64,000 nucleotides of DNA from Pseudomonas sp. JQ170C. GTDB taxonomy: Bacteria > Pseudomonadota > Gammaproteobacteria > Pseudomonadales > Pseudomonadaceae. How positions within the stretch are numbered: the first letter of the stretch is position 1; each line of letters starts with the position of its first letter. The stretch is taken from positions 186,001 to 250,000 of the forward strand of contig NZ_CP141608.1 of assembly GCF_035581345.1 (NCBI RefSeq), read 5' to 3'. The notes under the pieces were generated by a model. The model ran no database searches. It was not told where the DNA came from and saw only the letters and a list, made by a program, of their open reading frames with translations. Both the position numbers and the translations under genes were made by a program. Of the stretch, positions 780-4,078 are shown in pieces.

Positions 780-960
780 CGTTACCACACGAATGGGTGG
801 CAGCTGTACGCGGGGTGGTAAACCGGTGCGGAACCCCAAAACCCGGCAGGCTCGAAAGCCTCCCGCGCACAGCCGCCATTGACTGCGTTGGGAATTCCAC
901 GGCGGGTTACCACACCCGATCACCGAGTTTTCGGTGACGGGGCGGAGCCTAGAGGTACTA
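780..960 (-). promoter_or_regulatory. Structured leader RNA candidate upstream of the DUF6124-like gene
   Basis: Read on the reverse strand, this stretch holds a strong hairpin at 942-915 (TCACCGA-AAAC-TCGGTGA with flanking CCCG/CGGG), a hairpin at 861-848 (AGGCT-TTCG-AGCCT), and three related short elements. GTGGTAA occurs at 913-907 and again at 788-782, and the complementary TTACCAC occurs once between them at 821-815. The middle element can therefore pair with either flank but not both. Similar leaders recur, as I remember, before other DUF3077/DUF6124 genes in Pseudomonas. The ligand or trigger is unknown, and the promoter is not identified. Confidence 0.45.
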
Positions 961-2452: not shown

Positions 2453-3895
2453 ATGCAGCTTAAAGACGCCCAGTTGTTCCGCCAGCAAGCCTTCATCGAT
2501 GGCGTGTGGTTGGACGCGGACAACGGTCAGACCATCAAGGTCAATAACCCGGCCACCGGCGAGATCATCGGCACTGTGCCGAAGATGGGCGCGGCCGAAA
2601 CCCGCCGTGCCATCGAGGCCGCCGACATGGCGTTGCCCGCCTGGCGCGCACTGACCGCCAAAGAGCGTGCTGGCAAGCTGCGTCGTTGGTTCGAATTGAT
2701 GATCGAGCACCAGGACGACCTGGCCCGCCTGATGACCACCGAGCAAGGCAAGCCACTGGCCGAAGCCAAGGGCGAAATCGCCTATGCCGCCTCGTTCATC
2801 GAGTGGTTCGCTGAAGAAGCCAAGCGCGTTTATGGCGACACCATTCCTGGCCACCAGCCAGACAAGCGCCTGATCGTCATCAAGCAGCCAATCGGTGTGA
2901 CCGCCGCGATCACTCCGTGGAACTTCCCGGCTGCGATGATCACCCGTAAAGCCGGCCCGGCCCTGGCCGCTGGCTGCACCATGGTGCTCAAGCCTGCTTC
3001 GCAAACCCCGTATTCCGCCCTGGCCCTGGTCGAGCTGGCACACCGCGCCGGCATCCCGGCTGGCGTGCTGAGCGTGGTGACTGGCAGCGCCGGCGACATC
3101 GGCAGCGAACTGACCGGCAACCCGATCGTGCGCAAGCTGTCGTTCACCGGCTCCACCGAAATCGGTCGCCAGCTGATGGCCGAATGCGCCAAGGACATCA
3201 AGAAAGTGTCCCTGGAGCTGGGTGGCAACGCCCCCTTCATCGTGTTCGACGACGCTGACCTGGACAAGGCCGTTGAAGGCGCGATCATTTCCAAGTACCG
3301 CAACAACGGCCAGACCTGCGTCTGCGCCAACCGTATCTACGTGCAGGACGGCGTCTACGACGTGTTCGCCGAGAAGCTCAAGGCCGCTGTGGCCAAGCTG
3401 AAGATCGGTAACGGTCTGGAAGACGGCACCACCACTGGCCCGTTGATCGACGAGAAAGCGGTTGCCAAGGTCCAGGAGCACATTGCTGACGCAGTCGGCA
3501 AAGGCGCCCAGGTACTGACCGGCGGCAAGCTGATCGAAGGCAACTTCTTCGAGCCGACCGTACTGGTCAACGTGCCGAAGAACGCTGCCGTGGCCAAGGA
3601 AGAAACCTTCGGCCCGCTGGCACCCCTGTTCCGTTTCAAGGACGAGGCAGAAGTCATTGCCATGTCCAACGATACCGAGTTTGGTCTGGCCTCGTACTTC
3701 TATGCCCGCGACATGAGCCGTGTGTTCCGTGTTGCCGAAGCGCTGGAGTACGGCATGGTCGGTATCAACACCGGTCTGATCTCCAACGAAGTCGCGCCGT
3801 TCGGCGGTATCAAGGCCTCGGGCCTGGGCCGCGAAGGTTCCAAGTACGGCATCGAAGACTACCTGGAAATCAAATACCTGTGCATCAGCGTCTGA
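2453..3895 (+). CDS. gabD: NADP-dependent succinate-semialdehyde dehydrogenase GabD
   Basis: This 480-residue aldehyde dehydrogenase oxidises succinate semialdehyde to succinate, the last step of the GABA shunt, in the cytosol. The family signatures are intact: the general base in LELGGNAPF (Glu255), the nucleophile in NNGQTCVCAN (Cys289), the Rossmann segment FTGSTEIG, and the C-terminal EVAPFGGIKASGLGRE typical of GabD. Length and catalytic positions match E. coli GabD within one residue. It lies 183 bases before gabT on the same strand, and a hairpin between the two may reduce read-through. The palindrome at 2373 may be its operator. The assignment is firm because sequence and neighbour agree. 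Confidence 0.96.
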   Translation: MQLKDAQLFRQQAFIDGVWLDADNGQTIKVNNPATGEIIGTVPKMGAAETRRAIEAADMALPAWRALTAKERAGKLRRWFELMIEHQDDLARLMTTEQGKPLAEAKGEIAYAASFIEWFAEEAKRVYGDTIPGHQPDKRLIVIKQPIGVTAAITPWNFPAAMITRKAGPALAAGCTMVLKPASQTPYSALALVELAHRAGIPAGVLSVVTGSAGDIGSELTGNPIVRKLSFTGSTEIGRQLMAECAKDIKKVSLELGGNAPFIVFDDADLDKAVEGAIISKYRNNGQTCVCANRIYVQDGVYDVFAEKLKAAVAKLKIGNGLEDGTTTGPLIDEKAVAKVQEHIADAVGKGAQVLTGGKLIEGNFFEPTVLVNVPKNAAVAKEETFGPLAPLFRFKDEAEVIAMSNDTEFGLASYFYARDMSRVFRVAEALEYGMVGINTGLISNEVAPFGGIKASGLGREGSKYGIEDYLEIKYLCISV

Positions 3896-3957: not shown

Positions 3958-4078
3958 ACACCGTACACCCAGTGGCCTGGGCCCCTGCAGCAGTCGATCA
4001 ACGCATGCTGCCCGCAGTTGAATACCGGCCACTCCGACTTGAATCGCGCCATCTTGTGTGTGGCGAATTGAGGACACT

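Follow-up and report, generated by a model that had tools for sequence, protein, structure and literature searches.

The reverse strand of the 64,000-nucleotide stretch of Pseudomonas sp. JQ170C DNA analyzed here (the window) encodes a 97-residue protein of the DUF3077 family (453-746; PF11275, 30.7 bits against a cut-off of 21), and the region before this gene carries a heptamer, TTACCAC (821-815), flanked on both sides by its complement, GTGGTAA (913-907 and 788-782). What kind of RNA does this leader encode, and how might it act on the gene that follows it? A sequence-only reading of the region had proposed a conformational RNA switch; the repeats and the two hairpins that it described (942-915 and 861-848) are all present, and the middle heptamer can indeed pair with only one flank at a time. 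Dinucleotide shuffling of 780-960 produced a heptamer with complementary copies on both sides in 35 of 5000 trials (about 0.7%), a frequency that speaks, for the simple triple alone, in favor of a chance repeat. That the leader is such a repeat, or a remnant without function, is nevertheless extremely improbable, contradicted as it is by the covariance-model score, the conservation and the co-evolution tests described below.

Judged by its sequence, the leader RNA is a member of the C4 family, known as an antisense RNA of phages and here carried on a bacterial chromosome. An Rfam scan of bases 700-1000 matched the C4 model over its full length (RF01695, model positions 1-87 of 87) at 793-883 on the reverse strand, where all features named here lie, with 79.6 bits against a gathering score of 45 (E 2.7e-16). 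The only other matches up to E 1 were c4-a1b1 and isrK, and we therefore set aside a riboswitch. The idea of a structured regulatory leader is thus supported, in the form of a known family, although the full-length C4 identity had escaped the sequence-only reading. The RF01695 alignment, the sequence and folding place the two arms of stem P1 at 862-878 (5') and 798-814 (3'), and alignment and sequence place hairpin P2 at 848-861 and hairpin P3 at 822-847. The loop of P3 bears the b' core (TTGGGGTTCCG, 829-839), which is hypervariable among close relatives, and the middle heptamer is a' (815-821), a C4 segment that takes no part in the pairing of the module.

Both recognition segments are complementary to the region 5' of the downstream gene's start codon, which lies at 746. 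Sequence and permutation tests identify the downstream GTGGTAA, a2 (782-788), as the target of a', and b' matches b2 (TGGAACCCCGA, 748-758), an 11-nucleotide target that ends one base 5' of the DUF3077 start codon and forms 11 pairs with b' (-19.1 kcal/mol); the sole Shine-Dalgarno-like sequence that b2 covers is a weak GGAA. The sites a1 (the upstream GTGGTAA, 907-913) and b1 (GGAATTCCC, 890-898), which lie upstream of C4, are complementary to the same two segments, with a b1/b' duplex of -18.9 kcal/mol when neighboring bases are included. This upstream copy of the C4 target takes the form of a c4-a1b1-like element (899-952) that aligns to RF03163 over model positions 1-53 of 53 (E 1.4e-9) at 42.1 bits, a score that does not reach the gathering score of 46.7; sequence and alignment place its first hairpin, with flanks, at 915-942. 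The isrK model (RF01394) falls well short, at 27.2 bits against a gathering score of 50. The second three-way set, b1/b'/b2, and with it the strongest contact of the leader, b'/b2, was absent from the earlier reading. A sequence scan found no sigma-70-like or other promoter-like site near the leader, and a phage P1-type c4/icd/ant immunity operon was rejected because the downstream gene is DUF3077 rather than icd or ant.

Such leaders recur before related genes in Pseudomonas, as the sequence-only reading had suggested. Among the best 80 of 95 loci with DUF3077 relatives in named Pseudomonas genomes (orthologues as well as paralogues, 46-91% identical, with more than one locus from several genomes), 77 carry an Rfam C4, and in 76 of the 80 the C4 ends 44-56 nucleotides 5' of the matched gene start; the match is at 1501 in 72 of them, and the shorter loci L252, L281, L282 and L302 have spacings of 47-51 nucleotides. 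The three relatives lacking C4 comprise two loci without upstream sequence (L289 and L308) and one with a deletion that runs from within C4 into the gene (L237). Because the exceptions are deletions or missing upstream sequence, not one of the 78 loci having upstream sequence shows an intact gene start without C4. In L237 (1270-1560, P. vranovensis DSM 16006) the deletion takes a2, b2, the DUF3077 start and the 3' half of C4; in L288 (1380-1640, P. mosselii LB-090624) the deletion spares all of C4 and takes a2, b2 and the start, so that C4 abuts gene sequence.

The 77 C4-bearing loci reduce to 70 distinct leaders, among which the b' loop takes 59 forms and a' takes 22, and in this set each C4 pairs with its own sites far better than with permuted ones: z is -23.4 for b'/b2, -13.2 for a'/a2, -14.0 for b'/b1 and -11.9 for a'/a1, with 0 of 20,000 permutations matching the observed value in each case, even though the non-pairing L288 (-2.8 and -1.8 kcal/mol) was retained. 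The covariation check on the GTGGTAA/TTACCAC-type pairs, which the sequence-only reading had named as its own test, was accordingly passed both among these leaders and among the C4 paralogues considered below (0 of 20,000 permutations). For a'/a2 pairing, the unbiased evidence comes from the permutation tests. A table of a'/a2 pair types, covering 85 of 166 loci (31 distinct), gives 31 of 31 standard pairs by construction, because it took only helices of at least seven pairs in one register.

An alignment of the window with ten close relatives shows where the leader changes. The C4 scaffold is 86-92% identical and a' and a2 are 100% identical, and identity is 79% at the coding start, 61% in the spacer 5' of b2, 40% in b2 and 35% in b'. 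Synteny with the window was established, within the fetched flanks, for five of the ten (L233, L234, L236, L238 and L239), which share its tRNA flank; no two of these five have the same b' loop, and none has that of the window. Across 28 pairs of eight sequences, b' identity (optimal gapped alignment) is 0.51, against 0.42 for shuffled loops and 0.63 at four-fold sites, and is the lower of b' and four-fold sites in 21 pairs, a comparison that is suggestive only of diversifying selection on b'.

The same matching is seen among paralogues within single genomes. For 96 C4 loci from three genomes, we compared the duplex energy formed with the own target to that with permuted targets of the same genome. 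The loci were all 55 matches of genome G049, three of which score under the family cut-off, 35 of the 36 matches in genome G010, where one partial match was left out, and all six of JQ170C; the 10 matches of a further genome, G003, also lie outside this set. Energies for own versus other targets were -10.99 versus -5.88 kcal/mol for b'/b2 and -8.68 versus -5.28 kcal/mol for a'/a2 in G049, and -12.95 versus -6.23 and -8.88 versus -5.80 kcal/mol, respectively, in G010. The observed energy sum was reached by 0 of 20,000 permutations in both genomes, and no sampled permutation bettered the observed pairing in JQ170C (n = 6). The upstream sites behave alike, with z of -9.1 (G049) and -8.6 (G010) for b'/b1 and of -13.8 and -10.9 for a'/a1.

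Specificity can also be read cassette by cassette. For b', the own target alone ranks first in 28/55, 30/35 and 5/6 cassettes of G049, G010 and JQ170C, and it is among the top three in 43/55 for G049, whose lower count arises partly because its targets share AGGAG. For a', which falls into shared classes, the corresponding counts are 18/55, 9/35 and 4/6. With both segments combined, the own target is best in 39/55, 28/35 and 5/6 across all 96 loci, and in 33/51, 27/31 and 5/5 of the 87 cassettes that pass a start-codon filter. Badly paired cassettes are L006, L173, L177 and L214. Two tandem C4 RNAs precede one gene in JQ170C (C1:5133326-5133720, L004 and L006), and again at L254, L266 and L275; in the JQ170C pair the first C4 is poorly paired and scores just 46.8 bits.

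The covariance model recovers the C4 fold, the complementarity to the gene's leader is two-part, and this complementarity persists among relatives and paralogues whose sequences have changed extensively. Phage C4 RNA is described as being cut from its precursor by RNase P and acting in trans to block translation at a ribosome-binding site, with a four-nucleotide difference in a' separating P1 from P7 (PMC5320573, PMC8546580, PMC8198154, PMC12197685). Since the anatomy of phage C4 is present here, translational repression of DUF3077 is the best explanation of the leader, and we consider it highly probable that a C4-type antisense RNA encoded in the leader silences the DUF3077 gene next to it. 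For the transcription, processing, trans action and repression of this RNA, and for a role of the DUF protein as its regulated product, we infer the following course. A single transcript would run from a1b1 through C4 and a2b2 into DUF3077; the C4 module would fold into P1, P2 and P3 and be cut from this precursor as RNase P cuts phage C4; and a' and b' would go on to pair with a2 and b2, so that the stretch 5' of the AUG at 746 is masked and translation blocked. The upstream a1b1 would compete with a2b2 for pairing to a' and b', and as a separate transcript it could titrate C4. Such a separate short RNA, of the kind represented by IsrK, is not indicated at this locus, where a sequence scan returned nothing terminator-like between a1b1 and C4. 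Elsewhere, the 120 nucleotides 5' of C4 contain T5 runs in 20/55, 9/35 and 2/6 cassettes of G049, G010 and JQ170C, respectively, counted as T runs only, irrespective of a hairpin.

Could the competition between a1b1 and a2b2 for a'/b' instead take place entirely within one RNA, as a cis-acting switch or attenuator that releases no free C4 to act in trans? Folding of 960-735 lends this some appeal, as the fold with a1:a' (-96.9 kcal/mol) and the native C4 fold (-95.3 kcal/mol) are nearly equal in energy; b1 co-varies with b', moreover, and structures A and B of IsrK offer a precedent (PMC4825925). In the same comparison, which excludes pseudoknots and with them the contacts of native C4 to a2/b2, intramolecular a':a2 pairing is disfavored at -86.8 kcal/mol, and the mean pairing probability in the ensemble is 0.21 for a1:a' against about 2e-7 for a':a2. 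Among the minimum-energy folds of 71 leaders, 28 pair a' with a1, only 2 pair it with a2 and 41 with neither, and the outcome varies with the length that is folded, the window's own leader settling into native C4 as its minimum-energy state once longer flanks are included. In addition, C4 forms a compact module, and its family is known for acting in trans. We therefore think a purely cis-acting device possible but unlikely. The switch of the sequence-only reading survives in part, because an upstream a1b1 copy competes for a'/b' and two folds are near-equal; the portion that gave way is the cis fold itself, which these energies support weakly, and the role of the middle heptamer, which belongs to C4. 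With silencing of DUF3077 by C4 as the preferred reading, the two near-equal cis folds suggest that release of C4 may itself be switched.

A free C4 RNA might also have its main targets elsewhere, in host genes or in invading phages and satellites, with the adjacent gene incidental. Roles of this kind have been proposed for C4-like sRNAs of A. baumannii (PMC5320573), and relatives of the window's leader occur in four phage and four plasmid records. We hold this to be very unlikely given the tight co-evolution of C4 with the pairing sites of its neighbor, and the a2-b2 pattern occurs once in the JQ170C genome in a search for exact matches. Among the mobile-element relatives, PP003922.1 (2277-2369) and KU708005.1 (3961-4052), both small Pseudomonas phage records, place the leader near integrase, excisionase and primase genes or near AlpA/Rha-like genes, surroundings that we presume to resemble those of P4-like satellites.

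Silencing by an adjacent C4 also agrees with the distribution of the RNA. Of 59 genomes sampled from the genus, 54 contain C4 (53 of them with a score above the cut-off); the matches total 992, with a median of 14 per genome, at least 20 in 25 genomes and a maximum of 54 in G049 (55 with laxer filters). Of 184 genomes sampled from the class, 7 contain it, JQ170C included; the class search scored fewer candidates per genome (22 versus 61) and still recovered all six of JQ170C. C4 counts follow the summed counts of DUF3077 and its relative DUF6124 across the 59 genomes (rho 0.93), a correlation among related genomes whose p-value does not test independent events and in which one gene may match both DUF models. 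The five genomes without C4 have no DUF match, and the 11 without a DUF match have at most three C4. A same-strand C4 lies within 900 nucleotides upstream of 35/41, 27/29, 2/3 and 0/1 DUF6124 genes in G049, G010, JQ170C and G003 (6, 2, 1 and 1 lacking one), and of 5/6, 2/2, 2/2 and 3/3 DUF3077 genes, the JQ170C figure being among the matches listed (2 of 4). Matches to c4-a1b1, many of them under the gathering score, number 49 in G049, 31 in G010 and 5 in JQ170C. Among 57 DUF6124 loci on IMG/VR contigs, 55 have at least 200 nucleotides upstream, and a profile built from our own C4 set rather than Rfam's finds C4 within 300 nucleotides in 47 and about 0.5-0.65 kb upstream in the remaining 8. 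One such contig (L315, 5001-8701) has its DUF6124 cassette near a phage tail-completion gene (phrog_26) and two ORFs that, in a PHROGs search that matched neither, we take to be an Xre/RES toxin-antitoxin pair.

The 90 cassettes of G049 and G010 gave 76 downstream ORFs of at least 60 residues by a mechanical rule that places some in the wrong frame; at E 0.01, Pfam assigns 55 to DUF6124, 3 to DUF3077 and 3 to Bro-N and matches none of the other 15. Of the 76, 57 start with a P-[ND]-P-P-like motif, sought with a loose regular expression. The Bro-N cassettes are all in G049 (L127, L156 and L176); the L156 protein begins MIKVTPNPPE as DUF6124 proteins do, as if a shared start had been joined to another domain, and the L127 protein, the only one scanned against PHROGs, matches phage anti-repressors. 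In phage P1, C4 controls a gene of the anti-repressor class.

The window's protein has 39 homologues at E <= 0.001 and scores under the DUF6124 cut-off (16.4 bits against 27), and the two families are related by hhalign (97.2%, E 2.9e-11); the unannotated group A4 was rejected as DUF3077 kin, its relatedness not being demonstrable. PADLOC gave no match for six proteins, NCBIfam none for DUF3077 and DUF6124 and only chance matches under the cut-off for two other proteins, PHROGs one weak family without assigned function for the window's protein (E 0.0067), and a PDB sequence search two insignificant matches (E 0.78 and 0.83). Phage or plasmid relatives of the DUF3077 gene were found neither by tblastn nor in IMG/VR. 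Nearby in the window, 1144-2055 and P0160 have no Pfam match, 2453-3895 is an aldehyde dehydrogenase, and none of the three matched phage proteins. Just downstream of this last gene, a succinate-semialdehyde dehydrogenase, lies a gabT RNA (3971-4033; RF01738, 56.2 bits). Beyond the DUF3077 gene, at 375-445, a large GC-rich inverted repeat is seen by eye, with a similar one near the L005 C4 cassette; we take it to be REP-like.

The leader shares with P1/P7 C4 its P1/P2/P3 fold, the a' segment, the b' loop, the upstream a1b1 copy and a two-part target that includes the region 5' of the start codon. In those phages, however, the target is icd/ant and a' reportedly sets specificity (PMC5320573), whereas here the target would be a chromosomal DUF3077 gene, genomes of the genus carry many C4 copies, and b' varies most between close relatives. 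The c4-a1b1 element (RF03163) and Gifsy-1 IsrK (RF01394) similarly feature alternative structures and, upstream, an element with complementarity to the antisense module, and our near-equal a1:a' and native C4 folds recall IsrK (PMC4825925); the present locus differs in that both Rfam scores lie under gathering and a separate a1b1 RNA is not indicated. The C4-like Group 1 sRNAs of A. baumannii likewise exist as several chromosomal copies per genome with variable recognition segments, but the account in PMC5320573 leaves their targets open, while nearly every C4 examined here precedes its own complementary gene. The P4 CI RNA, with seqA and seqC, is also an antisense RNA set between upstream and downstream complementary sites, a likeness drawn from its description alone, and it is described as acting by transcription termination (PMC4825925). 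C4 has been reported in proteobacteria and phages, and c4-a1b1 in gammaproteobacteria and phages (Weinberg 2010, PMC2864571, cited in PMC5320573 for C4 in Pseudomonadales), and PMC9630843 reports a mutation in a DUF3077 or DUF6124 gene. In the literature searched, which lies mostly outside subscription journals and so leaves absence unproven, we found no paper naming DUF3077 or DUF6124 together with C4, and neither an expansion of C4 on the scale seen in Pseudomonas nor three-way co-evolution of b1/b'/b2.

Thus the RNA family is already known, and what is unusual is the number of target-specific chromosomal cassettes in which b' changes together with b1 and b2. As a speculation to which we give a low probability, Pseudomonas chromosomes could hold a large store of mutually insulated C4 cassettes, with a three-way b1/b'/b2 specificity code pressed to diverge as in phage heteroimmunity; such cassettes may be sensors, in which RNA of an invading phage or satellite titrates the matching C4 and frees a DUF3077/DUF6124 effector. 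More broadly, the association with C4 places the uncharacterized families DUF3077 and DUF6124 in a regulatory setting and points to a phage immunity RNA that has multiplied on bacterial chromosomes, where the antisense RNAs and targets that evolved as pairs form a natural series in which to study how RNA specificity diverges.
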